Of a DNA stretch of 60,000 nt, positions 7,376-58,800 are shown in pieces. How positions within the stretch are numbered: the first letter of the stretch is position 1; each line of letters begins with the position of its first letter. The position numbers and the translations under genes are program-made. A model generated the notes under the pieces. It had not been told where the DNA came from and searched no databases. It worked only from the letters and a program-made list of their open reading frames with translations. The stretch is from positions 9,318,675 to 9,378,674 of the forward strand of contig NC_087078.1 in assembly GCF_026151205.1 (NCBI RefSeq), read 5' to 3'. This DNA comes from Bolinopsis microptera (taxonomy: Eukaryota > Ctenophora > Tentaculata > Lobata > Bolinopsidae).

Positions 7376-10030
7376 ATTCGAGGGTTCCACTCTCGCTTTT
7401 TAGCCTCTCATAAATATCAGTCATATCAATATGTTGTCTTGATAAAAGTCTGACATAATAATTTTCCATATGTTCCTTTGATGTTTTTTTTTGCTCCTCT
7501 CCCACCTCTGCTTCATCAACTGGAAAAAGTTAAATATCAGACCTTCTATTTGTTTTTCTTAAAATTTGGCCAAAAGTAAATGGTTGTGGGCGGGAGGCCG
7601 ACAAAGGGGGGGGGGGGGGGGGGGGCGATTATTAGGGGTCAGATCATATTACGTATAATTAGTGATGTGACGTATGTGGTCCATCAGTAGAATTTAATTG
7701 ACCCAGAAATGAGCTAGATATAGGGTAGAGTTCACATGTCAATTCTGTAAATCATAGTATAGCTGTACATTAAGAAGTCAACATGATCTGACTGGTCGAT
7801 TCGTAGATAACATAAGGGACGGGAGCTCTTGCTAAAGGGGGTTCTCGTATCAAGTGATGTGAGACGTACGTGCCAAACGCATGCAAGGGGAGTGAGCCGA
7901 CCAAGTGTTCTTAGGTATATATACTGGAAGATGAAAGACAATAGTATCACATTCTTACATCTCACCTGTACCTGAAGTTGTGAAGCCCGTCGCTGGGCGA
8001 CTTCGTTTCGGAGTCGACGTTACTGAAGTGTAAATTTTATATTATATGACTGATAACTATCGAATTGAATGAGATAAATCAAACATTTTCAGTCAAATTT
8101 TTCAGTCAAACAAAATCTCTAATTTATGCCGTTAATAACGATGAAAATTAGGGTAAAACAATGTAATTCTATATTTAAAGGAATGTAATAGCTGAAAACA
8201 TATGATTGGCAGAGCACAGGCCTAAAGGGACGTGTGTGCTGTGCGCTATTGCTAACATGAAACAACGATCTAGTAAAAGTTTAACATGGCCACTGATTTA
8301 TATACGACTAAGTTGGGATTGTTATAATAGTGTTAAGCGGAATAGAACTTAACTAGCGGTGTGGGTATAAATAGACTGATAGCCTCCTATAGACTTTCCA
8401 TTTCATTTGATTGACTTTAATATTTACTTAGGGAAAAATGCAAAATGTCTGGGAAAAAATTTGCGACAAGCTGATTTATAATTGTACCATATTCGTTTAA
8501 GTTCTACATACATATAGTTATATTGCAATTTGCAAATTAGTTTCTCTAATCTTGAAACATAAATATATGTATGTTAAATATACAGGGGGGGGGGGGGGGG
8601 GGGGGGGGAGGGAAAAGTCAGTACCCATACGTTGGCCTTAAGGAATTTGTCAAATTGTAAATATTCTTGTTAATTTTTCCAAATGAAGGTCCATTTTCGC
8701 ATTTATATGATATAGTTTGGATAGTCGGATCGAGCCAAATGTTATTGAATGGTGTTTGGTCATTTAAATTACGTATGTCAACAAAAATGAGAGTTATAGT
8801 TTCTCAGATGACCGAGAGGCGAGATATGCAGCATAAAACGTTTGTTCATTACGTGTGATCAGGTGAATAGGTTGAGGGCTGAGGCTAGATCCGCATTATG
8901 GGAATCGTACAGAGAGCCGTCAATTTTTCTGACGAGATAAACAAATTGCTTGATAACTTCATTTAAATCCGTCATTTTAAATCCGCTTTGCGCCATCTTT
9001 TCAGATTATATCTCGGATTAAATGACCTATTGTATGCAATATCATGAATATGTTACAACGGAGTTTCTAACATGTTCGCAAACACGGGTATAAGCAATTC
9101 AATGTTGATTGGGTGTGGCCCCCAAAAATCGAATTTTCAAACTTTGGTTACGGAATCCTGACCTTTGCCCCCCCCCCCCCCCCCCTTTATGTATGTGTGT
9201 TTTTAAATATTTCCCTCCTGTTGATGATACAAGAAAATTATGTTTTTCTCACCGAAATGGCCTATAACGGCTTCCAAGTCTGAGGCTCGTGGCGTTACAA
9301 CATCTTCGTCGAAACCTGAATTGTAGTTATTTCTTTTAAATACTTTTTGTTTCAAAATTGTTAAAGTTATTTCGTTGGTAATAGTGTGAATGATGCCAAC
9401 TAACGCTCGTATTGCGATTGTGGACTATTGTCATATATCCGGATCCTGATGGCACCATGGCAGCACTGTCGTTCTCCTGACCCCTCTTCTCACTGCTCCC
9501 TCCTAATCCTTACACCTTCCGTCCTCAATTCCTCATGTCAAGTTAATACTTGCGTCATACCAATCCAGATTCTAGAAAATGCACGACGTAGGACTTGTTA
9601 TTGTTATCGGATACCTCAAGTGTATCCTGAATTAAAAGGAATTTCATCGCAACACCCATTAGCTGATATAAAATCATGTGCCTTTGTGTGGGGACGCTAG
9701 TCGCTATACAACTCGTGGACAGAATTATACGTCATGAAACCCTTGTTCCGTTCATGCCCTTCGCAATTTGTTTCCGTATGGTTCTCATGACTCCTATGTG
9801 GACCAAGTCGCAGATGCCAGGGATAATTTTTTTAATTGAAATCTTTCAAATCGATCAATTACATACAAATTTACACAATGAATGAACAACATTAAATATT
9901 CTCAAAAGTATAAGACTCCGATAAAATCAGATTTTCTAGGACGAAATGTATGTAATCAAAGGACCTGAGGGTCACCAAAACACAGATGTTGAGAGCAAAA
10001 AGCACCTCCTGCACAAGTATGGGCCCACGC
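7376..10030. other. No gene seen; G- and C-homopolymer runs
   Basis: Non-coding. Landmarks are a G-run at 7606-7625, a G-run at 8585-8608 and a C-run at 9168-9185. The sequences just inside the last two runs are weakly alike in inverted orientation, but no flanking duplication supports an element. Confidence 0.5.
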
Positions 10031-20104: not shown

Positions 20105-22933
20105 ATGGCTACAAAGAAAAGAGAAAAAAAATTAAGGATTATTGCGAGATTCCTGTCCTATGTCGCCCTAAAAACGCAGCATAGAGTACTAACAAAAATT
20201 ACCTACAGACTGGCTTGCAAGTAAGTTTAGAAATGTGGTATCTGTACCAAAACTGTGTTTTCTTAAATTTTTGACTTAAGTCACATTTCTTAGCCTCTTC
20301 AATCTTCACTCTGACCACAAACTTTCTTGCCTCTATTATTATATTTAGCTGTATATATACAATACAACCCCAATGTGCAAATAGGAAGTTGCATAGCTGT
20401 TTTTACATATTACTCGGCTGTATCTTCAGTTGGCACTTGGTACATGGATGTTATTTGATGCAATAAAAACTTACAAAGAATACTATTAGCTTCTTCTATG
20501 ATGGTTTTTTCGTCAAACTGATAATTTTCTTTTTCAGCTCCCCGAAATCCCGCTATCTAAAATCTTTACCTAAAATAAACGGACTTGTCATCCAAGCCAG
20601 GATGTTGCTACAACATGGAAATAACTCTGAGTATCGGTAAGAAAATAGAGTTTAGATCAATCAAAGATGTATGCTTTTTTTTAAAATCTCTTGCTAATAA
20701 AGACCCAACCCAAAGTTCTTGTTCCTTGGCAAGTCGTCTCAGTAAAATGAAGATATTGTTTCTCATAAAATCAAATGTAACTTGGTGCTTAGCGTTTTTT
20801 TTCAGGAAATTTTTCGGCATGAACAAATTAGAGTTCAAAACACTCTCTATGAAACTTACTCCAAAACTCTTGTCTACATCGAAAAAAGAGATTCCAGGGA
20901 TGTCTCCAGAAGCTAAGTTGGCCTGTACATTGAAGTAAGAATATTTTTAAACTTTTAAAACTTATGATATTTTTTTATAATTTCTCAGAGGAAGCGTTTA
21001 ATTACTTTATACATGAGAGATGAACAATCCATCAGTTTCACACATAGAAATTGTGTCAAAATTACACTGGCGTAATTATTTGAAAACCCCTTCCCCTCGG
21101 CTGATAACGTAATATATGAACGACTCCTATTAATGATGTTTTCTGGGCACATTATTTCCCTTTAAGATTTTGTAAAACTCAATAATTTCAGCTACCTCCG
21201 AAGCGGTTCAAGTTTCACAGTTCTGGCCATTTGGTGGTCAATTAGCTCGCAACACTTGGGTTTTGTTGTTAAACAGGTTTAGTTGTGTTTTTATTGGAAT
21301 TATGAGACGCTTCAAAATTACACTACTAGCTTTCTGTAATAAGGACTAAGGTGTTACTTTCGTTTAAAATATGCTTTTCAAATTAAATTTTGCGAGTTTC
21401 ACTAATCTTGATTTCATGCCAGATATAAGATCTTACAGATCTTATTTTAATATACCATGCAATGTACTTTGTTGGATAACTTAGGCCTATATTAACTTTT
21501 AAGTTGGTTACCGTGATGGTAAAAGTATCCGTGTAATGATGTGGTTTTAAATAGTCTCTGACACGTTAACCAAATTCTGCCGAAGTTAACATTCACCATT
21601 TAGCTTTATGTCTTGGTAAAAATTCATAAAATATTTGTGTTACAGGTTTGTCAGGCTCTGTGTGATCTTTTGAGTGTAGAGGCTGATTGCCGCCCGAAAA
21701 ATCTCGAAGACTGGCTTAAAATAGCTGACGAGTTCGATAGTAGATGGAGGTTGCCCCACTGTCTAGGTATATAATTACAACACTAAAAAATAGTTTTCTT
21801 ATCGGCTTTTCGCCATATGAACAAAGCCACTTTAAAAGGGGTGATTAAGATGGGAATGCTACTTTAGAAGTTGGTGAATTGGAATAATACTAACTATACT
21901 ATAGAGTATATTACGAGAATATGAAAGTTTATGCTGTACAATATTTAATGAAATTATGTACTTGTACTTACTGTGCTTTGTGATCCGACGGTCTTACATT
22001 CTGATTAAAATATTGACAAATCATTCTAAGCTAATAAAACATATAGGAGCGGTTGACGGGAAGCATGTGAAAGTAGTGAAGCACCCAAGAAGTGGTTGCC
22101 TCCTCCACAATTACAAGGGGTTTAACTCTATCATCCTCCTTGCTGTTGTCGACGCAAAGTACAGGTTCGTGAAGTTTCAGATTCTTATTAATAAAGTGAA
22201 ACCCCTAAATGTTGAATAAATGTCCCAATATGTTGGAGGAATGTCTAAAATATTTGGAGTTTGATATCACGTGATCTTTTGACTTACGGGTTATGAATGT
22301 GTCTTCGTGTCAGGTTCCCACTCCCTCTCAATCATGTTTTTTTTTCTGGAATTAGGTTATTTCCTGATTATATTAAATCCTAGAATGTTACCCAAAGAGA
22401 TCTTTCTTTTCTAATCTTTTTGACTGTTCCACAAATTTTATGATGTGGTTGATTTTGGGGGGGGGGGGGGGGAGGGATCATGTTTATTGTCCGTTTTTGT
22501 CCGTTTGGTACCTATATTTTCAAAACAGACAAAAAATAAAGCGGACAAAAACGGACAAAAACGGAAGAAAAATAACAAAAATTGAATTAACATTTAGATG
22601 CTTCCTCCTCCTCCTCCTCCTCCTCCGCCTCCTCCTCCTCTTCCACCTCCTCCTCAGTCATCCTCCTCAGTCCTCTGAGTCCTCCTGAGTCCTCCTGGGT
22701 CCTCCTCCTGAGTCCTCCTCCTCCTCCTCTTCATCCTCCTCCTCTTCATCCTCCTCCTCTTCCTCCTCAGTCCTCCTCCTCAGTCCTCCTCCTCATCCTT
22801 CTCCTCAGTCCTTCTCCTCCACAGTCCTCCCCCAGGTCCCCCTCCTCCTCCTATTCAGTCCTCCTCCTCATCCTCCTCAGTTCTCCTCCTCCTCAGTCCT
22901 CCTCCTCCTGGGTCCTCCTCCTTCTCTTCATCC

Positions 22934-22965
<32 letters not shown>

Positions 22966-25900
22966 AGTCCTCATTCCTCCTCCTCAGTCCTCTTCCTCAT
23001 CCTTCTCGTCAGTTCTCCCTCTCCTCAGTCATCCTCCAGTCCCCCTCCCCCTCCTATTCAGTCCTCCTCCTCCTCCTCCTCAGTTCTCCTCCTCATCCTT
23101 CTCCTCTTCCTCCTCAGTCCTTCTCCTCCACAGTCCTCCCCCAGTCCCCCTCCTCCTCCTATTCAGTCCTCCTCCTCATCCTCCTTAGTTCTCCTCCTCC
23201 TCTGTCCTCCTCCTCCTAGGTCCTCCTCCTTCTCTTCATCCTCCTCCTCTTCCTCCTCAGTCCTCATTCCTCCTCCTCAGTCCTCCTCCTCATCGTTCTC
23301 GTCAGTTCTCCTCCTCCTCAGTCATCCCCCAGTCCCCCTCCCCCTCCTATTCAGTCCTCCTCCTCCTCCTCCTCCTCCTCAGTTCTCCTCCTTCTCATTC
23401 CACCTTCTGAGTCCTCCTCCTCCTCTTTCTCCTGAGTCCTCCTCCTGGGTCCTCCTCCTCCTCCTCCTCAGTCCTCCTCCTGAGTCTTTCTCCTCCTCCT
23501 CCTCCTGGGGGGGGGGGGGGGGAGAGGGGGGATATCATGTTTTTTATCCGTTTTTTCCGTTCGGAACCCTATATTTTCAAAACGGACAATAATTAGAGCG
23601 GACAAAAACGGACAAAAAATAACAAAATGGAAATAACATTTAGATGCTTCCTCCTCCTCCTCTTCCTCCTCTTCCTCCTCCTCCTCCTCTTCCTCCCCCT
23701 CCTCCACCTCCTCTCTAGTCCTCCTCAGTCCTCAAGGTACCCAAGGTAGTCCTCAGTCCTCCTCCTCAGTCCTCCTCCTCCTGAGTCCTCCGCCTAAGTC
23801 CTCCTCCTCCTAGTTCCTCCTCATCCTCCTTCTCAGTCCTCCTCCTCCTCCTCCTCCTCTTCCCTCGCAGTTATCCTCCTCATCCTTATCGTTAGTCCTC
23901 CTCCTCATATTCAATCCTCCTCCTCCTCCTCCTCAGTTCTCCTCCCTCTCAGTCATCCTCCTCAGTCATCCTCCTCAGCCATCCTCCTCAGTCATCCTCC
24001 TAAGTCATCCTCCTGAGCCATCCTCCTCAGCCATCCTCCTCAGCCATCCTCCTCAGTACTCCACAGTCCTCTTCCTTCTCAGTCCTCATCCTCCTCCTCA
24101 GTCTTCCTCGTCCTGAGTCCTCCTCCTCCTCCTCCTCATCCTCCTCATCCTCCTCCTCCTGAGTCCTCCTCCTGGGTCCTCCTCCTCCTAGGTCCTCCTT
24201 CTCCTCCTCCCTCTCAGTCATCCTCCTCAGTCATCCTCCTCATTAGCCATCCTTCTCAGCCATCCTCCTCAGTACACCTCAGCCATCCTCAGCCATCCTC
24301 CTCAGTCCTCCTTCTCAGTCCTCATCCTCATCCTCCTCCGCAGTCCTCCTCCTCATCCTTCTCCTTAGTCCTCCTCCTCAGTCCTCCCCAGTCCCCCTCC
24401 TCTTCCTAGTCACTCCTCCTCCTCCTCCTCATGTCTCCTCAGTCCTCCTCCTTCTCAGTCCTCCTCCTCCTGATCCTCCTCCTCATGTCTCCTCAGTCCT
24501 CCTCCTTCTCAGTCCTCCTCCTCCTCCTCAGTCCTCTTCCTGGGTCTTCCTGATCCTCCTCAGTCCTTTTCCTCCTCCCCTCCTTAGTCCTCCTCCTACT
24601 CCTCCTCGTCCTCAACAGTCCTCCTCCTCCCCAGTCCTCCTCCTCCTCCTCCTCCAAGCCTGGGGCCTTTTCCTGGGCCCTCCTCCTGGGTCCTCCTCCT
24701 CCTTCTCCTCCTCAGTCGTTCTCCTCCTCAGTCGTTCTCCTCCTCTTCCTCCTCCTCCTCCTCAGTCGTTCTCATCCTCCTCAGTCCTCCCCCAGTCACC
24801 CTCCTCCTCAGTCCTCCCCCAGTCACCCTCCTCCTCATCCTCATCCTCCTCCTCAGTCCTCCTCAGTTTTTTCCCCAGTCACCCTCCTCCTCCTCCTCCT
24901 CCTCCTCCTCCTGGGGGGAGGGGGGAGGGGGGGGGGAATATCATGTTTTTTATCCGTTTTTTCCGTTCGGAACCCTATATTTTCAAAACTGACAAAAATT
25001 AGAGCGGACAAAAACGGACAAAAAATAACAAAATGGAAATAACATTTAGATGCTTCCTCCTCCTCCTCTTCCTCCTCCTCCTCCTCCTCCTCCTCCTCCT
25101 CCCCCTCCTCTACCTCCTCCCCAGTCCTCCTCAGTCCTCAAGGTACCCAAGGTAGTCCTCAGTCCTCCTCCACAGCTCAGTCCTCCAACTCAGTCCTCCT
25201 CCTCCTCAGTCCTCCCCCAGTCCCCCTCCTCCTCCTTCTATTCAGTCCTCCTCCTCATCTTCCTCAGTTCTCCTCAGTCCTCGTCCTTCTCAGTCCTCGT
25301 CCTTCTCAGTCCTCGTCCTTCTCAGTCCTCCTCAGTCCTCCTCCTCAGTCCTCCTCCTCAGTCCTCCTCCTCAGTCTTCCTCCTCAGTCCTCCTCCTCAG
25401 TCCTCCTCCTCCTCCTGAGTCCTCCGCCTAAGTCCTCCTCCTCCTAGTTCCTCCTCCTCCTCCCCAGTCCCCCTCCTCTTCCTAGTCACTCCTCCTCCTC
25501 CTCATGTCTCCTCAGTCCTCCTCCTTCTCAGTCCTCCTCCTCCTGATCCTCCTCCTCATGTCTCCTCAGTCCTCCTCCTTCTCAGTCCTCCTCCTCAGTC
25601 CTCCTCCTCCTCCTCAGTCCTCTTCCTGGGTCTTCCTGATCCTCCTCAGTCCTTTTCCTCCTCCTCCCCTCCTTAGTCCTCCTCCTACTCCTCCTCGTCC
25701 TCAACAGTCCTCCTCCTCCCCAGTCCTCCTCCTCCTCCTCCTCCAAGCCTGGGGCCTTTTCCTGGGCCCTCCTCCTGGGTCCTCCTCCTCCTTCTCCTCC
25801 TCAGTCGTTCTCCTCCTCAGTCGTTCTCCTCCTCTTCCTCCTCCTCCTCCTCAGTCTTTCTCATCCTCCTCAGTCCTCCCCCCAGTCACCCTCCTCCTCA

Positions 25901-28900
25901 GTCCTCCCCCAGTCACCCTCCTCCTCATCCTCCTCCTCCTTCTCCTCCTCAGTCCTCCTCAGTCTTTTCCCCAGTCACCCTCCTCCTCCTCCTCCTCCTC
26001 CTCCTCCTCCTCCTCCTCCTCCTGGGGGGGGGGGGGAATATCATGTTTTTTATCCGTTTTTTCCGTTCGGAACCCTATATTTTCAAAACTGACAAAAATT
26101 AGAGCGGACAAAAACGGACAAAAACGGACAAAAAATAACAAAATGGAAATAACATTTAGATGCTTCCTCCTCCTCCTCTTCCTCCTCCTCCTCCTCCTCC
26201 TCCTCCTCCTCCTCCTTATCCTCCTCCCCCTCCTCTACCTCCTCCCCAGTCCTCCTCAGTCCTCAAGGTACCCAAGGTAGTGCTCAGTCCTCCTCCACAG
26301 CTCAGTCCTCCATCTCAGTCCTCCTCCTCCTCAGTCCTCCCCCAGTCCCCCTCCTCCTCCTTCTATTCAGTCCTCCTCCTCATCTTCCTCAGTTCTCCTC
26401 AGTCCTCGTCCTTCTCAGTCCTCCTCCTCAGTCCTCCTCCTCAGTCCTCCTCCTCAGTCTTCCTCCTCAGTCCTCCTCCTCAGTCCTCCTCCTCCTCCTG
26501 AGTCCTCCGCCTAAGTCCTCCTCCTCCTAGTTCCTCCTCCTCCTCAGTCCCCCTCCTCCTCCTCCTCCTCCTCCTCCTCTTCCCTCTCAGTTATCCTCCT
26601 CAGCCATTCTCCTCAGCCTTCCTCCTCAGTCCTCTTCAGTCCTCCTCCTCCTCCTCAGTTCTCATCCTCCTCCTCAGTCATCCTCAGTCTTCCTCCTGGG
26701 TTCTCCTCCTCTTCATCCCCCTCCTCTTCCTGGGCTCAATCCTCAGTCCTCCTCCTCAGTCCTCCTGGGTCGTCCTCCTCTTGGGTCCTCCTCCTTAGCC
26801 CCCCTCCTTTTCCTCCTCAGTCCCCCTCCTCAGTCCCCCCTCCTCAGTCCCCCTCCTCCTCTTCCTCTCTTTCATCTCTCAATAATTTGTTCAATTTATA
26901 ATTATTGTTGGTGTTATTGTTTACATAATTTATTGTTATATACTAAAATGTTTTTAAACGCATTTGAGTAGGACTCAAAATGTGCTCAAGAATCTTTGTG
27001 TTTAACAAAGTTTTACTCTCCAGTAATAAAACTTTTCATCCCTTTTTATGTTATTAAAAAATGTGTAGACTATTCTTTGTACCTAATTGAGGATTAAAAG
27101 TTTGAGAAAGGACCATGGTCATTAACCGGGCTACCCATTTCTGCAGATAGCCTGTTACAAATTGTGGAGAAAATTTAAATAAAAATTTACAACGGACAAA
27201 AACGGACAAAAAATAACATGATCCCCCCCCCCCCCCCCCCTTGATTTTTCTGTTGATAATTTCCTCATTCTGATCAGCTGTATTATAAATTCTGCTCAGG
27301 CATTCGATACCTTTTTTTAAATCTTTCGAATTTGGGTATTTATTTGACTGATTTGGATCGATGAAAATTTATTTTCGCAGGTTCATACATTTTAATGTGG
27401 GGGCGTATGGTTCAAGGAGTGATGGAGGTGTATGGGCAGAGGACAGACTTGGGTCAGCTCTGAACAAGGGCCACCTCGACAGCTTTATTCCTGCACCAAA
27501 CTACCTCCCCAGAGACGAGAAGGTCAGATTTCCGTTAATATGATTAATCTTATATATAGCAAATAACGATACAAATGTATATGTGGAGATAGACGTGGTT
27601 TATTTTTTTACAATTAAGATGTAAAAGGATAGGAAAGCTTTTTTAAACTTGTCGTTTGACTTCAGAGATCCTGTGGATTGGTCAACTACTTCTTCGTCGG
27701 GGACGACGCTTTCGGGCTTCAGCCCCACATGATGAAGCCATTCAGGGTTAGGAACGGGATGGAGGACAAGGATCTAATGGATAATACCAACTACCGCTTA
27801 TCCAGGTAATATATAATATATTATGATGTACAATTATCGAGTGAATTGCTGCTTTTACAAAAGTAATTTTGTGGGTTGTTTTTCAACTTTTTACTAATTG
27901 CTAATAAGATTTATAATCTCATTTCATTGCCCTTTTTTTGCCCTTGTGAAATGAAAATAAACATCTCCATCATTTAACATTCTACATAATGCTGATGTTT
28001 GGCAATTAGGTTGTTATAAGTAGCACTTATTAACTTAATACGACTATGGAATATAATTGCTTACCTCTAAACCAAACCTTGTTATTTGCAGTGCGAGAAT
28101 GGTGGTCGAGTGTGGTTTTGGGCACTTGGCCCGAAAATTCAGAGTTTTTGATGTTCTCCATACGAGAAAGGAGATGACCACCTTAGTTGTGAGGACGTGT
28201 GTTCACATCCACAACTTCCTTCGGCTCAGCAGAGAGGATGAGGAAAAGGAGATCAGACAGATCATGAAGCCGGCGAAGAGAAATTTTGAGTCGATGTTTC
28301 TTCCTCCCCGACCCTTCTCCCGGCCACTCTTGAAGGAGAAGGCTGAAGTTAACCGTTACCGACTTCACCTTTACTTCAACGCTGTTGATATAATTAAAAG
28401 TAAGTTAAGTTACACTCTACTAGGACCATCACATATTCAACATGAGTGTAAGATACATTGCGTTCTATGTAAAACTACATTACCTTGGCCTTCATCTACC
28501 ATATAAACTGTCAGTTTCGAGCTTCGAGAGCTAGAGATAGAAAACTTTGATTAATGTGTGTGAGGCAGTATCTAGATAGCCCGACCACTGTCCGCAGACA
28601 ACTGCCCACGGCTGGGGTAAAATTTGGCAAAAATAAGTAAATTAGTTGATTTTTGAACTACCCTTTTATACACGATATATATATAATAAAACGTCCTCCA
28701 ATGATAATAATATACATATATATATTAAGATCTTTACTTAGTATATTCAAACTTCAAGAATGCCAAATCTTTTTCCCTACTATAATTGCCGAGGGAAAAA
28801 ATATCGTAGGGAATAAGTAATCGGGTTTGGATATATGAAGTGGAAAAAGGGGGCTACGTTGACGACAAAAGTCTGCTTCTTCGCAATAGACCACTCCCCT

Positions 28901-44480: not shown

Positions 44481-45389
44481 AACCTTCTAAGGAAACAGAT
44501 AATAAACTTCTATTCCTCATCGGAATATACATTCCCTTTCATTCAAGTTAAATTCAGCTTTCCCTGGCTATCTGCCAAGATTTGTTATCTCTACGTGACG
44601 AGGGTTATCGATAAACATGTCGGTAAATAAATTAACAAACTTCAATGAACTTATAAACCTGATACAGTTTTTTTATCAGATGAAAAATATGAAATTTCTG
44701 AAAAATCTTTCGGAAAAATTGTTTAAGTTGTAAGAAACTCTTTACCCAGGTTTTAAATAGAAGCCCTGCAAAAGTAAGATAATACATCATTATATTATTT
44801 AGTTATATTATTAAGTTATCATAAAATAATGAACACACACCGTCAATGAGAAGTATATCATCTTCCAAAACTAGATGCGGCCCTCCTCTCGAGCTCAGTT
44901 TAAATCCCTCCCTCACTTCAGCGTCATTCCACGCTACTCTCATACCTGGTGGTTGAGAAATGTAACTGTTATTTACTGTTGGGGTGTCCAGCATAAAAAC
45001 CCATTTTAAATTGGAAAATTTCAGGTAAAGTTGGGTTTTTTTGGGGCCTGTATAGGTCAGTGAACTTTACTTGATTAGAAAACATTGAAAAGAATACAGG
45101 GGTTTTGTTTCAATGTAGTCGTGAATTAGACAAAAAGTACCAAAAAAAAAAGAAAAAATCCAAAAAAACCCATTTCCAAATGGATAAATTTTAAGGTCTA
45201 AAAATGGGTTTTTTGGGGTTGGGACCAACGCCCCCACTCTTACTTGGTAGCCATGAGTGAAATAGTGAAAGGGTTTCGAGTGTAAAGTGTAAATGGACCC
45301 GTCTATCATTTTGGTTAATTAGTTCGTACATGAATTGTATAATTTATCAATTTTATGCAGAGTTACTTTAAATTATTATCCACGAAAAA

Positions 45390-45567
45390 GTAGTAGTGAC
45401 GGGCCGGTGTCCGACACTAAGGGGCTCGGGACTGTTATAGCAGCTGATTGGGACCGCCCTATGGATCGCCTAATCTTATACGATAATATAGATTATATTT
45501 TTTTATTCGGAAATAATTATATAACAGCCCGGAAGCCCCCCAGGGTGGGACGCTCGCGCACTACTTG
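45390..45567. mobile_element. Degraded copy of 182-bp TIR MITE
   Basis: Inverted-arm equivalent of the element at 59021-59202, with several indels in the termini (GTCCGACACTAAGGGGCTC and GCCCGGAAGCCCCCC). Confidence 0.7.
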
Positions 45568-46569
45568 ACTCGCCCACTCTCGTGGGGTGACTCGTGGACT
45601 TGCACCGCGAGACTGCGTGAACTGGGTAAAGAGGTTACATTTCCGCCTAAAACCGTTCTTTAAATCGAAAACGGTTTTAAGACTAAAAGTAAGTTTATAT
45701 ACTTCTGAGGGTTTTTTCGGGATATATATACGCTGGTAAACTGTGCTTTACCTTTTCACCACCTCCGGCGATGCCTTATCATTACAGGATATCTGTAATG
45801 GTTTATGGTTTTACCTAGGGCATGTCCGAGATATTATCGTGGAATCAAAAGTAGTTCAAAATATGTATTACCATAGATTGTTTTCTGCCAGCATGAGTTT
45901 ACATACTGCTAGTACTACTACAGTAGTCAGCGCAGTCCAGATAAAAAGAAACTATGGTCAACCACCAGCCGCCAGATAAATGTGAATTAACCAGGTAACT
46001 ATGGAAACAGCCTCCTCCAATACCAGGAAACTGTAAAAAAAAAATAACCGACTTGATAGCATAGTGACAGCAGAACTTCGGTCCTCACAACACCATCATA
46101 ACCAGGTATACAGTCACACCTGCAGCCCGCGCTATTATATGGAATCTATCTTATAACCCATAGCCTGACAGAGTGTTTTATCAGAGTAACTCATGGGAGG
46201 GGGGGGGCAGGGGGCATTATTCAGGTATATACGCTATCTAACTGCGTATAATGCGCATTACACTTTTTAATTGCACGATGGCGCAGCCGAGTGGAAATTG
46301 ATACAATAATCGCACGAGGCGAAGCCGAGGTTCGATTTCTTGCAGTTATTTCACGAGGGCAGCCGGTGCAATAACTGGTGTAATCGTATTATACATGCAG
46401 TTCGATTCGCGTTTAACTCCACGCCCTCTGAAGTTTAACCAGAGTAATTTGTTTATAATCGCACCTACTTTGTTGATATACAGGGTGGGCTCAAAAGTCT
46501 AACCATTTTTATCTCTTAAAATGTAAAGCTCGCTGAGATCTCACTAATTATTTTATTTCAGAATGGATA

Positions 46570-47220
46570 AAGCGCCATAACTTACGTTCCTGTATTAATA
46601 TTTTTGATTATAATTTTTTAGAGTTTGTCACATCATAATAGGGACACAACTTTGTGTAAGTTTCTGTGTGCGTCTGAGTTGTCTGACAAAGGTTAGCCTC
46701 CTGAGAGTGCTAGCTTTAATTTCCTCACCCAGAACTGTTTACATTGGTTAATAGAAACCACCCAAAAAAAATCATGGGTAAAAAATAAAAAACCAACGAT
46801 TTATGTATGTTTTACCAATTCTATTCACCATTGATACAGAGCACATTCCATGTAAGAAGAACGATATAAACAAGCAGGAAGGTCTTCTGTGATAGTCTTA
46901 TCAGTTAAAATATAGAGGAGAATGGAATGTGCGTGGATCCTTGTGAATAGAATTGGTTTAAAACGTGAATAAAATCGCTGGTGTTTGAAAATTTTTGTTA
47001 CCCGGATTTTTTTGGTGGTTTTATTATCCAATGTAATCAGTTCTGGGTGAGAATTCAAGCTAGCTCGCTAGGGGTAAATTGGTCAAATAAGCTCGTGCCG
47101 CTCGCAATCACACAAATCTTGCCACAAGGTTTAGATACTTTGTTTTAAACATTTCTGTGAAATTTAGAGAAGCAAAAATATTAATCAGAACATAAGTTAT
47201 GCCACTTTTTGTTTTACAAA
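46570..47220. mobile_element. Foldback element, left-arm copy
   Basis: Equivalent of 57384-58025. Its own two arms pair around about 46890: CCAATTCTATTCAC against GTGAATAGAATTGG, and CACCCAGAACTGTTTACATT against AATGTAATCAGTTCTGGGTG. Confidence 0.75.
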
Positions 47221-50200
47221 TAACCGTGAGGTAATCTGCCCTGCCTCATTACTGTGTTGTGTTAATGGCAATGTATGGATTGACTTATTCCAAACCACAT
47301 GGAAAGATGTTGTCCTAACTATAAATTTAAAATTTGTGCACATATATTTATGTCGTCGCGACCATTACACCTAACGGTCGGCAAACTACCTCAGGTCGTT
47401 GATTTAGTCAATACTTGAATCAGCACCTCAACAGTAGTTAAATTACTCGGTTTTATTTAGGTCCTATTTTACGGAGGTGCTCCTCTCTAACTCTAAATCA
47501 TCGCTTGAGCCATGATATTACAGGACATCTTAGGGAATCAGTGTGCAATTAGTTCTAGTAATCGTACCCTAAGAGATTTTCGGTCACTCTCAAAAAACAG
47601 TGCTATTAAGTTTGTAATAGCACCACCTGGAACATAAAACGGTTGCAATTATGGGATTAATAAATGGCCGCCACATAGTTCAAAAGTGGAGTTATCATAA
47701 CAATTTGAGTAGTAGCTATTGTTAGTTAATTATAACAAATTAGAGTAGTACTAGCGTCATTGTTTCTGTTAGGTTATCAGTTAACAAGTAATTTTTCTTT
47801 CAATATTAAAACTATTTAGTTAAATGAAAGTATCATAAACTACTTCTTGTACCTGTATTGCCTTTTCTTTAGACCCTATGATGGCGATACCCTCTCCTCA
47901 AGGAGTTGAGCGAAACTTACAGTTCTCCTGTGGAACGTACCTGGGTGTTATCGCTTGAGATCCTGATACTTATACTGCCGCGTTAACTATCGCCTGATAG
48001 TATACTGTTTGTGTTTAGATAACAGTCGAAACGTCTGTGATATTACGTTCTATAGGGGGAGGGTGGATCATGCGATTCCCCCTTATTTGGTTAGTTAAAA
48101 TGATATACTAAACGATAAGTTTTGGGAAACTTTATTTTAACGTGATCTTCTTCTGCAAAATAATGGAATTTAAATGACTTTGTTGCAGCTAAATTGATCC
48201 CGTTATAATAAATTATGTAGAGCCCTCATCTTACCTCCATGTCCAGGTAAACTTGGTTGATAGGAGCCGCCGTCCACACAGACTAGACTCATCAGCCCAT
48301 CGCACGTGCAGCGCCGCGGTCGTCCACGTCACTGTGTTAACCGCGACTGTCTTGTTGCCGAGCGTGCGGGCACGGCTTCATTACACGGCATGCTATCTCC
48401 CCTCTGTTCGCTAACCAGGTACTGCCAGGAGGACCACTTGTGTTTTAATTTCTTGGTCCAGGGATTAGGTAGGGGGTGATGCTTTATTTGGTTTGAATCG
48501 TGGTACTGACGTTATGGAGTTGGGTGGTCCCTGCTGGAAACTGATACTGTGATTATGGTTGTTTCCTTCAGAAAGCTAACCTCCCCCCAGTATCTTTGTC
48601 TGGATGAAATACGTCTTCGAGATGTGCTCATTTTCAGTATCTTTTAATACTGGAGCAAGGAATAGAGTTTTAAAATACCTTTCTCACTTTATCAAAAGGT
48701 TGGGTGACGGTGGCAGTTTGAAGGTTCTTTTAAACTGTGCGACGGAGGAGACGGAGCGTGACATGGCTGGACTAAAGAGCTAGAGATAGAAGTTTAGTTA
48801 TTTACTAACGAATTTTGTTAAGTTATTAAGCTGTTTTCTACGATTTGTTTAAACAAAAAGTTCATTTTTAATTTAATTTAATTCTTGTATTAATTCTTGT
48901 AACCCTGTTTTGTTAGTGGATTTGTAATTAGTTAGTTCGTGCAATCAATAAATGTACTTCTAACGGCTTAACCCAGGATTTAGTAATGTGTAAGGTAAGC
49001 TATTAGCTATGGGCTATATCAGGCTGAAATTAGAGTTCTGAACTCTAGGAAATGAAATTAATTAACTTCTCGATCAAGTAAAATATTTGGACAAATATTA
49101 GAAAATTACAAAACTTTATCATTTTATGGGTTGTTGGACAAAGGGGTTTCTGGCAAACTAAAGAACATTAGCAGATTTTATAACATGAATATTAATTTAA
49201 AATCTAAAATATAATTAGGTCCTCGCAGTAATTTGAAAATAAAAGTCAAACACACAATATCCAGGCACGGGTAAAATACAACAATCTTCCACCTTTAAAC
49301 AATCAAATTAACTTAACTATTATAGGAAACAGTAGGGACGGTTCATACATGAACAGGCTCCTACTAATTTAAATAAGTTAATAAGGCAGTTAGTTTTATC
49401 TCTTGTTAGCAATACCTTTTTACTTTCAGTATTCCACCTCTGTCTCTCGGCCCCCACATTACTTCAGTATTCTGTCCGGAGAAGTCCTCGTTGGAACAAC
49501 TGGTATAACTTCTCTCGTAGGGAGGGTTCATGCCTACAACTAAAGGTTTTAAACTAATTACAACACTACAAATCTATTACATGAATTGTGCTACTGTAAG
49601 AAAGTAATTGTAAGTCTCGTCCATGACAAGGCATGAAGCCAAAACGTCGACAAACCATTTGTTTTGAAACACGAATGGAGACTCTCACTTTGTCCCAACA
49701 ACAGCAATTAAAACTAAAGGTTGATAAAAAATTGGTGAAAAATATGGGCGTTGGCTGGAGAGAAGTTCCGGTCTTCAGTTGAAGCTTTAAAATTTGTTAT
49801 TTAGTGGTTATTTTCTCCTGCCCTCAAGGGGATCCAACCAAAACTACAGTGCTTGTTTGGATTATAAGTTTCACCATTACTTAGGAAAATGTGGTTATAG
49901 ATTGTGTGATCTCTGGCGGGGGTGGTGATAATTGTTTGTTTACATTACATAGTGTGCACATGTTCAGCAGGATGAGGAGGTGATAATTGTTTGTTTTACT
50001 TTTTAGGTCGAGGCACATGTTAAGCAGGCTGAGACGAGGTGTACATTTTTTGTATCTTATAGAAGGTTTGTAAACACTTGGTTACGCTTCTCGTTACCCC
50101 CCTCTTTGAGGGACCCCGAATTAATTTCTGAACGAAAGCTCAAAAAATAACCGATGAAATCGACCTTCTTATTAACTCATTTTGATGACTGTTTCGGACC

Positions 50201-51139
50201 TAAAATTGCACGAAAAATCGATTTAGCTAGGTTTCAGGTACTATTTTAAAACAATTCCTTATCCCTCAAATTGATGTATTTTATTTGTTAATAAGACCAC
50301 AAGACATTTATTTTGAGGCCTTCGTCTCTACTCATGACCTAGGTCAGTTTTAAGCTGAACCCCGACAGATTGAAGGCAATCCCTAACCTTAAACTGTTCA
50401 AAACTGGTACTCTTACCATAACACCAATTTTCAGATATAAATTGTTCTTTGCGATACGTTTATTGCAGCTTTGCAACCTTGAAGTGAAGACCATGAGAGT
50501 ACGAAAAACAACCAGCCAGGTAAGCAACTCACTTTTGGTGAACTGTTCTCACGAAACATTTGATCCTGTAATCAATGAACAGGGCGATGTTCTCTCTTTA
50601 ACAAATCCGAACAGGTACTATCAAAATTTCCAGAGCTCTGCATGATAACAAAGTCAAAAGAACACAATGAGGTCGGTTACCAACTCCACAATTAACAATC
50701 ATACTCGGCAAAACATGAATTAATGTATTCAGGACGACGGGCAGCCCCTGTGTGATCCGTGGTCCTCAACGAGCGACCCACTTGTAATAGAGGTGTTCTT
50801 GGTATGTGACACCGATCCGTCACTCACATAAAGGAAAGTGAGCAGACGATTATCGTGTGTTTACTTCCTAATCTTTATTGGACCTCAGTTCACATAGTGA
50901 TCTCTACCCACTATCTTGACTTCGGCAAGGTCCCGCGTGCAATATTCTGCACCGAGGTAACCTCACCATGATTACGTTCAATGAACTTGAAATAGTGTGA
51001 TTGTGTACACTTATATAACCGATGCCCATCGCCACGTACAGTTCCACACTGTTGGGGGGGGGGGGGGGGGTCGCGGGACGGCCAATATTTAGTTCTTAAG
51101 ACTTTTTTAAAGCTCACGGACATAGTAATCTTGTAGCTG

Positions 51140-51310
51140 GATACAAACCGACAAACAAAGGAGGAGGAGACCTGAGGGAAGGGGGGAGGAGGGGGGGAGG
51201 AGGGACTGAGGAGGACTGCGGAGGCGAGGATGAGGAGGAGGAGGACTGAGGTGGGAAAAAACGGAGGGGGGGGAGAGGAGGATGAGGACCCCTCCTGAAC
51301 AGGAAAAAAC
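51140..51310 (-). repeat. GGA-rich tract, TCC satellite family
   Basis: In reverse orientation it carries TCAGTCCTCC motifs and a TTTTTTCC spacer. It pairs with 53430-53580 and resembles the satellite at 22.6-26.9 kb. Confidence 0.75.
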
Positions 51311-51849
51311 GGACTCGAATGTTGTACAGGTACCAGCTAAAATATCTACCACGCTTATTTCAGTAACAGTATATTTCGAATCAGCATCTTAATAGCGTAC
51401 AGCAAAGTTAACCTATTGATCCGAAATATAAAATGCAGCTGGTAACGACCAAAAGAGGGGTTCACTGAACATTTCAACAGCGCTACTTCTTACCCGTTAA
51501 TCGATTTTATCAATTACTCTGGAACCTTCCGTTTGTTATCTCACTCAAAATAAACACCCGCACACAAAATGATGCCATTGACTTGAGGGCAAGTTGGCAG
51601 CATTTAAAGTTACACAAACTCTTATTACAATTTGAGACGGATCCAAGTTTACATATTTAAAGAACGGCAATGATAAATTTAAAGCACAAATTGAAAATTT
51701 TTAGGGTCTAACCTGGCAACAATGAACCTGCCACCCTGTTGATCTATGGGAAGCAAAGGAATAATGCATATATCCCATGAGTGCTCCTTTGCTTAACTTA
51801 GACCTTTAGACAGTAAGTGTTTGGAAACAGAATCTAGGACACGACTTCA

Positions 51850-52930: not shown

Positions 52931-53429
52931 ATTACCAGAACTGTATGTTCCAGGAGGAGGCAGTATACTGGAGGACAAGCATGGTTATACCTGGCAGAGT
53001 TGAAGTACTAGTTCAACATGGTGCAGTTCATTTTTGCCAGGTTAGACACTAAAAATTTCAATTTGTGCTTTGTAATTAGTCATTGCCGTTTTAAATATGT
53101 AAACTTGGAGTCCTTCTCACAATTGTAATAAGAGTTTGTGTAACTTTAAAATGCTGCACTTGCCCTCAAGTCAATGGCATTCATTTTGTGTGCGGGGTGT
53201 TTATTTTAGATGAGATAACACGGAAGTTCAAGTATTGATAAAATCGATAACGGGTAATAGGTGCGCTGTTGAAATGGTTCAGTGAACCCCTCTTTAGTTC
53301 GTTTACCAGCTGCATTTTATTTCGGATCATGGGTTAGAACTTTGCTGTACGCTATTAAAATTGCTATTCGAAATATACTTGTACTGAATGTAACTGGTAG
53401 ATATTTTAGCTGGTACCGTACACATTCGT

Positions 53430-53580
53430 GTCGTTTTTTCCTGTTCAGTCCTCATCCTCCTCTCCCCCCCCTCCTTTTTTTCTCCACCTCAGTCCTCCTC
53501 CTCCTCAGTCCTCCTCCTCCGCAGTCCTCCTCAGTCCTCCTCCCCCTCCTCCTCCCCCTCTCCCTCAGTCCTCCTCCTCC
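53430..53580 (+). repeat. CAGTCCTCCTCC tract, TCC satellite family
   Basis: CCTCAGTCCTCCTCCTCCTC units after a TTTTTTCC spacer, like the intronic satellite at 22.6-26.9 kb. The serine/proline frame across it is an artefact. A C-run follows at 53667-53684. Confidence 0.8.
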
Positions 53581-54399
53581 TTTGTTTGTCTGTTTGTATC
53601 CATGCTACCATGATTACTATGTCCGTGCTTAAAAAAGTCTTAGAATCTAAATATGCCGTCCCCGACCCCCCCCCCCCCCCCCCCAACAGTTTGTAATGTA
53701 CGTGGGCGATGGGCACGGTTATATAAGTGTACAACAATCACACTATTTCAAGTTCATGACGTAATCATGGAGTGTTTACCGCGGTGCAGATATTGCACGC
53801 GGACCTTGCCGAGTCAAGATGTGGTAGAGATAACAATGTGAACAGAGGGTCAAATAAAGATAAGGAAAGTAAACACACGATATCGATCTGCTCACTTTTC
53901 CTGTTTGTGATTGGACGGATCGGTGTCACATGACATAACACCTCTATTACAAGTGGTCGCTCGTTGAGGACCACGGAGCACATCAGGGCTGCCCGTCGTC
54001 AGAATACATTTAATTCAGTTGTCAGTATGATTGTTATATTGTGGTGTTGGTAACCTACCTTCATTGTGTTTCTTTTGACTTTGTTATCATGCTGTGCTCT
54101 GGAAATTGTGATAGTACCTGTTCGATTTGTTAAGGAGACGATCTCCCTGTTCATATGTTACAGGATCAGAATGTTCGTGAGGAACAGTCACCAAAAGTGA
54201 GTTGCTTACCTGCTGTGTGTTTTCGTACTCTCATGGTCTTCACTCAAGTTGCAAAGCTGCAATAAACGTATCGCAAAGAACATTTATATCTGAAAATTGT
54301 GTTAGTACCAGTTTGATCAGTTAAGGTGAGGATTGCCTCAATCTGTCGGGTTCAGCTTAACTGTCTAGGTCATGAGTAGAACCGAAGGATCAAAATATA

Positions 54400-55880
54400 T
54401 GTTGCTTGTTGGTCGTATTAACTATAAAACATCAATTTTGAGGGATAAGGAAGTGTTTATAGGTTCTGAAACCTAGCTAAATCGATTTTTCGTGCAATTT
54501 TAGGTCAGAAACAGTCATCAAAATGAGTTAATAAGAAGGTCGATTTCTCGGTTATTTTTGAGCTTTCGTTCAGAAAATAATTCGGGGTCCTCAAAGGGGG
54601 GTAACAAGAAGGCGTTACAAGTGTTACGAACCTTCTATAATACAAAATATGTATCACCTCCTCAGCCTGCTTAACATGTGCTCGACCTAAAATGTAAACA
54701 AACAATTATCACCTCCTCAGCCTGCTTAACATGTGCTCACTATTAATGTAAACAAACAATTATCACCTCCCCGCCAGTATCCACATCTATAACCTACATT
54801 TTCTAAGTAATGGTAAACTTATAAGGCCAAACAAGCACTGAGTTTTGGTTTGGATCCCCTTGAGGAGCTGGAGAAAATACCACTAAATAACAAATTTTAA
54901 AGCTTCAACTGAAACCGGAAACATTCTCTCCAGCCACGCCCATATTTTTCACCAATTTTTATCAACCTTTAGTTTTAATTGCTGTTTTGGGACAAAGTGA
55001 GAGTCTCCATTCAGTTTTTCAAACAAATGGTTGTCGACGTTTTGGCTCATGCCCTTGTCATGGACGAGACGTTACAATTACTTCTTACATAGCTCAATTA
55101 ATGTAATAGATTTGTAGTGTTGTAATTAGTTTAAACCTTTAGTTGTACCATGAACCTCCCTACAGAGAGAAGTTATACCAGTGTTCCTACGAGGACTTCT
55201 CCGGACAGAAGACTGAAGTAATGTGGGCCGAGAGACAGAGGTGGAGATACTGGAAAGTAAGAAAGGGTATTGCTAACAAGAGATAAAACTGCAGTATTAA
55301 CTTAGTTTAATTAGTAGTACCTGTTCATGTATGAACCTCCCTACTGTTCCTATAATATTAAGTTAATTTGATTGTTTAAAGGTGAAGATTGTGTGTATTT
55401 TACCCGTGGCCTGGATATTGTGTGTTGACTTTTATTGCAAATTACTGCGAGAGGGACCTATTTATTTTAGATTTAAATTATTATTCATGTTATAAAATCT
55501 GCTAATGTTCTTTAGTTTGCCAAGAAACCCCTTTTCCAACAACCCATAAAATGATAAAGTTTTGTAATTTTCTAATATTTTCCAAATATTTTACTTGATC
55601 GAGAAGTTAATTTCATTTCCTAGAGTCTGAACTCTAATTTCAGCCTGATATAGCCCATAGCTACCTTTACAAATTACTAAAATCCTGGGTTAACCGTTAG
55701 AGTGACATATTATTATTGCAACAACTAACTATTGACAAATCCACTAACTAAACTGGGTTACAAGAATTTAATACAAGAATTTAAATTAAATTAAAAAGAC
55801 TTTTGTTTAAACAAATCGTAGACAGCTTAATAACTTAACAAATTCGTTAGTAAATAACTAAACTTCTTCTCTAGCTCTTT
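54400..55880. other. Upstream region of PCCA; no other gene seen
   Basis: It contains one copy of the dispersed repeat (about 54520-54620) and a local duplication of CAATTATCACCTCCTCAGCC with the following ~40 bases (about 54702 and 54758). No TATA box or other promoter motif is convincing. Confidence 0.4.
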
Positions 55881-55888
55881 AGTCAGCC

Positions 55889-58800
55889 ATGTCACGCGCC
55901 GGTCTCCTCGCACAGTTTAAAAGAACTCTTCAAACTGCCACCGTCACCAAACCTTTTGATAAAGTGAGATAGTATTTTAAAACTCTATTCCTTGCTCCAT
56001 TTATTAAAAGAATACTGAAAATAGCACATTCTTCGAAACGTATTTCTCCAGACAAAGATACTGGGGGAGGTGAGCTTTCTGAAGGGAAACAACCATTAAT
56101 CAGTCAGTTTCCAGCAGGGACCACCCAACTCCATACATCAGTACCACGTGTCAAACCAAATAAAGCTCACCCCAACCAGTATCCTGGTCTACAATTAACA
56201 CAAGTGGTCTCCTGGCAGGTACTGATAGCGAACAGAGGGGAGATAGCATGCCGTGTAATGAAGACGTGCCGCTCGCTCGGCATCAAGACAGTCGCGGTAC
56301 ACAGTGACGTGGACGACCGCGCGCTGCACGTGCGGATGGCTGATGAGGCTATCTGTGTGGGACCGGCTCCTAGCAACCAGAGTTACCTGGACATGGAGGT
56401 AAGATGAGGGCTCAACATAATTTATTTTATCGGGATCTTTTAGCTGCAACAAAGTCATTATAATTCATTATTTTGCAGAAGATAGATCACTTAAAATAAA
56501 GTTCTCCAAAACTTATCGTTTAGTATATTCATTTTACTTAACCATATTAAGGGGGAATCATGATCCACCCCTCCCCCTATAACGTATATCACTGAAGTGG
56601 CGACTGTTATCTAAACACTAAACAGTATACTATCAGGCGATAGTGAACGCGGCAGTAAGTACAGGATCTCAAGCAGTACACCCAGGGTACGGGTTCCTCA
56701 GTGAGAACTGTAAGTTCGCTCAACTCCTTGAGGAGAGGGGTATAGCCTTCATTGGGCCTAAAGAAAAGGCTATACAGGTACAGTAGTTTAGGAGACTTTC
56801 ATTAACTAAAATAGTTGAATATTGATAGAATATTTAACTGTTAACTGATAACTAACAAGTAACAATGACCTAGTACTACTCAATTTGTTATATTAACTAA
56901 CAAGAGCTACTACTCAATTTGTTATATAACTCCACTTTTGACCTATTTGGCGGCCATTTATTAATTCCATAATTGCACCGGTTTTTGTTCCAGGGGGTGC
57001 GATTACAAAACTAATTGCACTGTTTTGAGAGTGACCGAAATCTTATTAGGTACGATTACTAAACTAATTCCCTGAAAGATGCTGTAAATCATGGCTCAGG
57101 CAGATAATTAGAGTTAGAGAGAGCACCTCGTAAAATGAGGACCTAATTAAAACCGAGTATTTTACTACTGTGAGGTGCTGATTCAAGTATTGACTTAAAT
57201 CAACTACCTGAGGTAGTTTGGCGACCGTTAGTGTAATGGTCGCACGAAATAAATATATGGGCACAAATTTAAATTTATAGTTTAGGACAACATCTTTCCT
57301 TGTGTTTGGAATAAGTCAATCCTTACATTGCATTAACACAACACAGTATGAGGCAGGGCAGATTTCTCACGGTTTATTTGTAAAACAAAAAGTGGCATAA
57401 CTTATGTTCTGATTAATATTTTTGCTTCTAAATTTCACAGAATGTTAATAACAAGTAGCTAAACCTTTGTGGCAAGTTTTGTGTGATTGCGAGCTTCACT
57501 GAGCTTATTTGACCAATTTAGCCCCTGAGCGAGCTAGCTTGAATTTCTCACCCAGAACTGTTTACATTGGTTAATAGAAACCACCAAAAAAAATCCTGGG
57601 TAACAAAATTAAAAAAACCAGCGATTTATTCACGTTTTACCAATTCTATTCACATGGATCCATCGCACATTCCATTCTCTCTATATTTTAACTGATAAGG
57701 ACTATCACAGATGATCCTTCCTGCTTGTTTATATCGTTCTTCTCACATGGAATGTGCGATGTATCATGGTGAATAGAATTGGTAAAACATAAATAAATCG
57801 GTGGTTTTTTAATTTTTTTACCCAGGATTTTTTTTGGTGGTTTCTATTAACCAATCTAAACAGTTCTGGGTGAGAAATTAAAGCTAGCACACTCAGGAGC
57901 TAACTTTGTCAGACAAGCTCAGACTCACACAAAACTTAGCACGAAGTTGTGTCTAATTAAGATTGACATTCTCTAAAAATTTGAATCAAAAATATTAATC
58001 AGAACGTAAGTTATGGCGCTTTTCCATTCTGAAATAAAATAATTAGTGAGATCTCAGCGAGCTGTTACAATTTTAAGAGATAAAAATGGGTAGACTTTTG
58101 AGGCCCACCCTGTATAACAACAAAGTAGGTGCGATTATAAACTAATTACACTGGTTATAACATCAGAGGCGTGGAGTTATACGCGAATCTAACTGCATGT
58201 ATAATACGATTACACCAGTTATTGCACTCGGCTGCGCCTCGTGAAATAACTGCAATAATCGAACTCGGCTTCGCCTCGTGCGATTATTGTATCAATTTCC
58301 ACTCGGCTGCGCCTCGTGCAATTAATAGTGTAATCGCATTATACGCAGTTAGATTAGCGTATATTACCTAATAATGCCCCCCCCCCCCCCCCTCCCATGA
58401 GTTACTCTGATAAAACTACTCTGTCAGGCTATGGGTGATAAGATAGAGTCCAAGATAATAGCGCGGGCTGCAGGTGTGAACTGTATACCTGGTTATGATG
58501 GTGTTGTGGAGGACGATGTGGCTGCTGTCACTATTGCTAATCAAGTCGGGTTAGTTAGTTTACAGTTTCCTGTTATTGGAGGAGCTAGTTACCATAGTTA
58601 CCTGTTAATTCACAATTATCTGGCGCTGTGGTTGACCATAGTTTCTTTTTATCTGGACTGCGCTGACTACTGTAGTAGTACTAGCAGTATGTAAACTCTG
58701 CTGGGCAGAAAACAATCTAAGGTAATACAGTATTTGAACTACTTTGATCCACGATAATATCACGACATGCCCTAGGTAATACCATAACATTTCAGATATC

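Follow-up and report, generated by a model that had tools for sequence, protein, structure and literature searches.

The insert and its host intron

The stretch analysed here, called the window throughout, comprises 60,000 nucleotides of Bolinopsis microptera (C7:9318675-9378674), and the genome scanned for related sequences was the 264.65-Mb assembly of 232 contigs, 13 large contigs of which make up 97.5%. Inside an intron of a PIF/Harbinger-like gene the window holds an insert of ~4.8 kb (22457-27240 in window positions), a repetitive block considered here as a candidate DNA transposon that carries a satellite. Its parts are given below together with the intron and the target site duplication (TSD) enclosing it.

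22165-27380, plus strand: host intron of the PIF/Harbinger-type (DDE_Tnp_4-like) gene, placed by splice borders, frame joining and weak colinear domain matches
22449-22456, plus strand: left TSD, TTGATTTT, found once in the empty-site paralog L069
22457-22505, plus strand: left terminal inverted repeat (TIR), G16-A-GG-GATCATGTTTATTGTCCGTTTTTGTCCGTT
22476-22600, plus strand: left head with subterminal CGGACAAAAA repeats, ...ACATTTAGATGCTTCC
22603-23506, plus strand: pyrimidine satellite, module 1
23507-23655, plus strand: internal G-run and head 2, 91.2% identical to the left head
23649-24912, plus strand: pyrimidine satellite, module 2
24913-25060, plus strand: internal G-run and head 3, 98.4% identical to head 2
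25055-26023, plus strand: pyrimidine satellite, module 3
26024-26170, plus strand: internal G-run and head 4, identical to head 3 across 123 aligned positions
26165-26867, plus strand: pyrimidine satellite, module 4
26882-27222, plus strand: non-satellite tail, its first ~315 bp 95-99% identical to the other scored copies
27191-27240, minus strand: right TIR; the minus strand reads G18 then ATCATGTTATTTTTTGTCCGTTTTTGTCCGTT, with the G-run outermost
27241-27248, plus strand: right TSD, TTGATTTT

The left end opens with G16 (22457-22472) followed by AGGGATCATGTT and the right end closes with C18 (27223-27240), the two runs being in inverted orientation and leading into GATCATGTT and GTCCGTTTTTGTCCG, with TTGATTTT on either side. 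The inverted arms (22457-22505 and 27191-27239) span 49 nt and are 84% complementary, and short CGGACAAAAA repeats are present behind the G-runs in both ends. An initial annotation of the window had described these inverted runs with their matching blocks, the TTGATTTT repeat directly outside both of them (22449-22456 and 27241-27248) and the location of the tract inside an intron, all of which were found as described.

Between the ends, the tract is built of four tandem modules, starting at 22457, 23507, 24913 and 26024, each with a G-run, a ~125-bp head and a pyrimidine array; the last module is followed by the non-satellite tail and then by the inverted right end. The ~4-kb pyrimidine satellite of the initial annotation corresponds to the interior at 22603-26867, a (TCC)-rich, pyrimidine-dominated tandem array, and its description is refined here by the three internal G-run heads that break it, the resulting four modules, and the tail at 26882-27222, which lies beyond the array end at ~26867. 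Identity of the internal heads to the left head is 90-91%, against 97.6-100% among themselves, and modules 2-4 of the window copy are therefore probably the products of later tandem duplication. Apart from a 104-aa frame that runs from the tail into the flank and is without a Pfam match below E 0.1, the reading frames of at least 60 aa within the element are all low-complexity frames of the satellite, and no recognisable transposase frame was found in the window copy.

Together with one TSD the insert accounts for 4792 of the 5216 bp of the host intron, across which the reading frame joins as D-A-K-Y-R-F-I-H-F-N-V. Three exon pieces of the host gene match DDE_Tnp_4 weakly, below the cut-off (E 0.064, 0.17 and 0.0097) and in colinear order, the second of them having a better match in DUF6330 (E 0.0035). 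A paralog of this gene (L069, at C7:16285833) has an intron of 451 bp without the insert, close to the 424 bp that remain of the window intron once the insert and one TTGATTTT are removed, and its alignment spans the insertion point with a single TTGATTTT. The insert-free site anticipated by the initial annotation therefore exists, in the form of a paralog. When the joined flanks were used as a query, 37 of the best 40 of 166 candidates, including L069, spanned the junction, two were the window's own flanks and one ended short; these matches belong to a shorter repeat in which the insertion point lies, the insert being absent at those other loci (among the junction-spanning alignments, L069 and L072 were inspected by eye).

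Dispersed copies of the element

A query with the tail retrieved copies at dispersed loci, the best 40 of 307 candidates being 95-99% identical apart from the window's own match. These lie on 12 of the 13 large contigs and on two small ones; within this set C7 is represented by the window copy only and none was seen on C6. For the head and the left end, the best 40 of 970 and the best 40 of 917 candidates were scored, respectively, and GGGGMTCATGTT occurs 878 times genome-wide versus 16 for the pattern reversed. The ends were found elsewhere as inverted pairs, as the initial annotation required, with an inverted alignment of ~145 nt in copy L016, and the family termini consist of a variable-length G-run followed by [AC]TCATGTT and GTCCGTTTTT units, in inverted orientation. 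The length of the G-run varies by end and by copy, a variation of the kind that slippage would produce: of 30 right ends, 29 have runs of 7 to 32 and one (L018) has an interrupted run.

The tails of the 29 non-window copies have a median pairwise identity of 99.3% over 300 bp, which suggests that the family spread recently; the 30 compared copies are the best-scoring ones, and the identity figures for tail and satellite are accordingly biased upward. In L034 (C12:7360421-7363735), which is located in an (ACTATT)n-like array, both ends are preceded by TTAGTAATATTAATAGTAATAGTA read inward, and these inverted flanks may reflect the surrounding array or a rearrangement.

At composite joints (L002, L003 and L136), the pyrimidine module comes after a further type of G-run head (GTGTCACGTCCG...) and a minisatellite of GGACATAGGC. 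The corresponding composite satellites at C1:81787-84795 (L002), C1:309521-312529 (L003) and C1:4626900-4630500 (L136) show a GGACATAGGC-type minisatellite followed by a ATCATGTT head with pyrimidine satellite; the G-run GTGTCACGTCCG head accompanies the minisatellite in L002 and L136, and in L003 the composite unit is tandemly repeated.

Target site duplications

Exact flanking repeats were scored in 21 elements with both ends, the window copy included, and were 7 bp long in ten, 6 bp in seven, 8 bp in one (the window copy), 5 bp in one and absent in two. Thus, 19 of the 21 elements have an exact flanking repeat of 5-8 bp, whereas repeats of at least 5 bp were seen in one of 420 mispaired combinations, in which the left flank of one element was set against the right flank of another. 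The 8-bp duplication of the initial annotation holds for the window copy and not for the family, whose modal length is 7 bp, and the flanking duplications that it expected at other copies are present. The list had contained 22 elements, C2:2261k being dropped for want of a right end in the script output (by eye, ACTAA preceded by C's is visible on both sides), and C3:10999k was omitted as it is nested in another copy. Inspection by eye of the two elements with no repeat revealed an A interrupting the G-run in one, with which TTATTAA fits as a 7-bp duplication, and an insertion into an (ACTATT)n array in the other. Because a target that ends in G or starts with C merges with the runs, some true TSD lengths may be longer by one.

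Among the eleven 7-bp targets (the ten exact ones and TTATTAA) there is T at position 1 in nine, A or T at position 2 in all eleven, A or T at position 6 in nine and A at position 7 in nine. The target preference is therefore AT-rich and symmetric, near TWNNNWA.

A satellite moved as cargo

The 400 bp of array upstream of the tail have a median identity of 98% in the 435 pairs formed by 30 loci, the worst pair reaching 64%. As the satellite is in register across closely related copies, these comparisons indicate that it was copied together with the shell, that is, the satellite moves with the shell. This agrees with the suggestion in the initial annotation of an element that moves as a whole with its repeat.

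Taken together, the insert at 22457-27240 is very probably one copy of a high-copy, non-autonomous, cut-and-paste TIR DNA transposon family that carries a satellite, since it has the terminal inverted repeats, the target site duplication and the dispersed copies moved as a unit that characterise the TIR order. It is established for TIR elements that inverted ends, together with a duplication that is short and varies little in length, imply a transposase of the cut-and-paste type, here one acting in trans. Such a transposase would recognise the CGGACAAAAA/GTCCGTTTTT motifs that recur behind the G-runs, the CGGACAAAAA motifs being likely recognition sites by analogy with Galileo as presented in the accessible part of PMC4079207, and would excise the whole unit and place it in an AT-rich target of 7 bp. 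The left end and the array could then be duplicated in tandem, either by unequal exchange within the array or by nested insertion into it, giving rise to copies that, like the one in the window, contain several internal G-run heads.

Several observations weigh against this interpretation. The empty site is a paralog and not an allele, and the base after the right TTGATTTT differs, being T in the window and G in L069. The length of the TSD is not fixed (5-8 bp). In addition, 25 of 40 sampled GGGG[AC]TCATGTT sites on C1 are internal module joints with near-identical upstream sequence that ends in gctgttata (gatgttata in one); the 878 occurrences therefore overstate the number of mobile ends, and the motif alone is not proof of one, a point that also counts against the interpretation in the initial annotation. 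No transposase-bearing member was found at 60 sites sampled from the C1 list of 90 GGGGMTCATGTT sites. Finally, the array of the window copy is only ~77% like that of other copies in the multiple alignment; in pairwise global alignment it is 82.2-83.6% identical in register to four copies, and seven out-of-register stretches give 80.5-84.7%. The tail of the window copy has a median identity of 97.7% to the other copies, and a tail still ~98% similar next to an array no longer alignable in register implies either a faster turnover of the array than of the shell or an exchange of the array; from these alignments, satellite turnover seems to be faster than shell turnover. The proposal of a unit that inserted and then expanded is thus borne out in part, the window copy being rearranged or expanded internally, with three extra heads and an array not detectably in register.

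Candidate sources of the transposase

Of the 60 sampled C1 sites, 47 open into a pyrimidine tract of the family type (by reading, 30 of 40 in a first batch and 17 of 20 in a second, for which a script threshold counts 18, since it lets through L150, a run of (AG)n). Ten of the remaining 13 show no visible relation; the rest consist of a head followed by an open reading frame (ORF) fragment (L103/L136), a very small palindromic element (L121) and an older relative (L161). Two candidates were rejected: the 7-kb pair L093 is a satellite module plus an unrelated site, and the joint at L136, which resembled a gene-bearing member, was read as a module with an unrelated ORF piece. A query with the end of L095 alone retrieved relatives and no paired long element among the best 40 of 253 candidates, while matches to the whole of L095 were dominated by another repeat nested in it.

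A transposase of the P superfamily, with the present elements as Galileo-like foldback derivatives, is a possible but not a probable source. It would account for the modal 7-bp TSD and the AT-rich symmetric target: Galileo has 7-bp TSDs, with 8 bp in three copies of one species, and an AT-rich palindromic target with consensus GTANTAC (PMC4168063, in the part available). The P-type TSD length of 7 bp, occasionally 8, is found here as the mode, and the 6-bp cases fit it only if a terminal G or C has merged with the runs. According to the available portions of PMC4079207 and PMC4168063, the tandem repeats inside Galileo and near its ends may add binding sites for the transposase, which also recalls the repeated motifs described above. 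On the other hand, coding copies of Galileo exist, G-run termini are not described for it in these portions, and other P elements, like hAT elements, have TSDs of ~8 bp (PMC3706591, in part). The P-type profile PF21787 had no match in the genome, but its control was likewise silent everywhere, which makes this absence uninformative.

It is more doubtful that a transposase of Mutator-like elements (MULEs) mobilises the family, although Tetris of Drosophila virilis and other foldback elements that contain satellite repeats are usually placed in that group. MULE transposases have 88 matches in the genome, and for two of the eight on C1 there is a GGGGMTCATGTT site at a distance of up to 10 kb (mean for random places 0.43, P 0.07), but for only one within 5 kb (P 0.21), and the sites near the two matches (L127 and L153) open into satellite modules and not into a gene. 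As far as the accessible text of PMC4079207 goes, Tetris was assigned to Mutator by its TSDs, and a miniature inverted-repeat transposable element (MITE) related to it has the same ends. Tetris resembles the present family in being a non-autonomous TIR element whose repeats feed satellites and whose autonomous partner was not found; it differs in having ~220-bp repeats inside both TIRs and TSDs of 8-10 bp, longer than those reported here, which are mostly of 7 or 6 bp and surround G-run ends with the pyrimidine array between them.

It is unlikely, though worth stating, that the family represents an animal DNA transposon lineage of its own, with G-homopolymer termini, 7-bp TWNNNWA duplications and a transposase outside the superfamilies tested, whose exchangeable modules of G-run head plus satellite would seed satellite genome-wide.

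Mobilisation by a Merlin or hAT transposase is quite improbable. Both groups are present, with 58 Merlin matches, including one family with GGGCAGTCTACAAG ends, and 150 hAT matches (from the best 150 of 365 candidates), and Merlin ends in GG. On C1, however, none of the seven matches to the Merlin transposase, which is of the IS1595 type, and none of the 19 hAT matches is found 5 kb or less from any of the 90 sites listed; of the other 51 Merlin matches, two on C2 were compared with sites by eye. In the available parts of the sources, Merlin TSDs are of 8-9 bp (PMC8101967) and those of hAT of ~8 bp (PMC3706591), whereas here 8 bp was seen in one of 21 elements and 9 bp in none. Merlin, an IS1016-like group for which matches are reported in three ctenophores, shares with the present family termini that start with GG and, in some families, internal tandem repeats (PMC8101967, same part). 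The inverted repeats of two Merlin elements of this genome, L139 and L141, start with GGCAGTCTACAAGAAGCCCGACTGGTCCATGG, with one G more in L141, and L139 has by eye a probable 8-bp duplication, GGAATCAG.

Target duplication is not expected of Helitrons, and Helentrons are rolling-circle elements without such TIRs and target duplications. An element of the Helitron/Helentron type, with a tandem repeat at its centre as known from oysters and flies, is thus a highly improbable reading of the 49-nt inverted ends of the window copy, the longer inverted alignment in L016 and the duplications of mostly 6-8 bp, even if non-autonomous Helentrons such as those of oysters are known to carry satellite arrays and to disperse them (PMC7492417, in the part available). 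Dada elements were discarded as a source because, according to the accessible part of PMC3706591, they are without TIRs and insert in small RNA genes, whereas here TIRs are present and the window copy is in the intron of a protein gene. That an ordinary pyrimidine satellite expanded in place, its inverted G-run ends and TTGATTTT repeat being accidental, could be entertained because a G-run alone proves little in a window with ten other G/C runs of at least 16, but it is scarcely credible and in our reading refuted by the empty site with one TTGATTTT, the dispersed shells with their own duplications and the satellite common to the loci.

Other features of the window

Homopolymers in the window are biased to G/C, with 13 G/C runs of at least 16 and no A/T run of at least 12 (ten versus none outside the element), while nine other loci (29 kb) have no G/C run of at least 10 and one A/T run of at least 12. 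An inverted duplication (44564-51746 and 53009-60000) with arms of ~7 kb, 88.8% identity and a 1.3-kb centre reaches the window end, with a small GAGGA/TCC tract and a long G or C run (G17 at 51054, C19 at 53666) in each arm. At 2345-2650 and 8585-9185 a G-run again faces a C-run; these two pairs may be short elements, with no clear target duplication by eye.

Relation to known elements and significance

The family is known in kind, with Tetris, Galileo and satellite-bearing Helentrons as counterparts, and is unusual in its G-homopolymer termini, its modal 7-bp duplication and its exchangeable modules. A hallmark of foldback elements is long TIRs made up of tandem repeats; the present family has short CGGACAAAAA repeats in both ends and a ~145-nt inverted alignment (in L016), not TIRs of kilobase length, and may or may not be of this type. 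No description of the family was found among the titles and opening abstract lines of the accessible literature on ctenophore satellites and transposons and on poly-G termini; Repbase and subscription journals were outside this scope, and a named entry may exist. In another ctenophore, Mnemiopsis, more than 90% of loop-forming promoters hold DNA transposon insertions, according to the part of PMC12221973 available.

The dispersal of a satellite as the cargo of a DNA transposon is documented here with internal controls, namely the empty site, the paired duplications and a satellite in register across loci. Since sequencing through poly-G termini is difficult and the termini may adopt unusual structures, elements of this kind may be under-reported. 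The modular G-run heads provide a tractable system for how transposon ends turn into satellite units.

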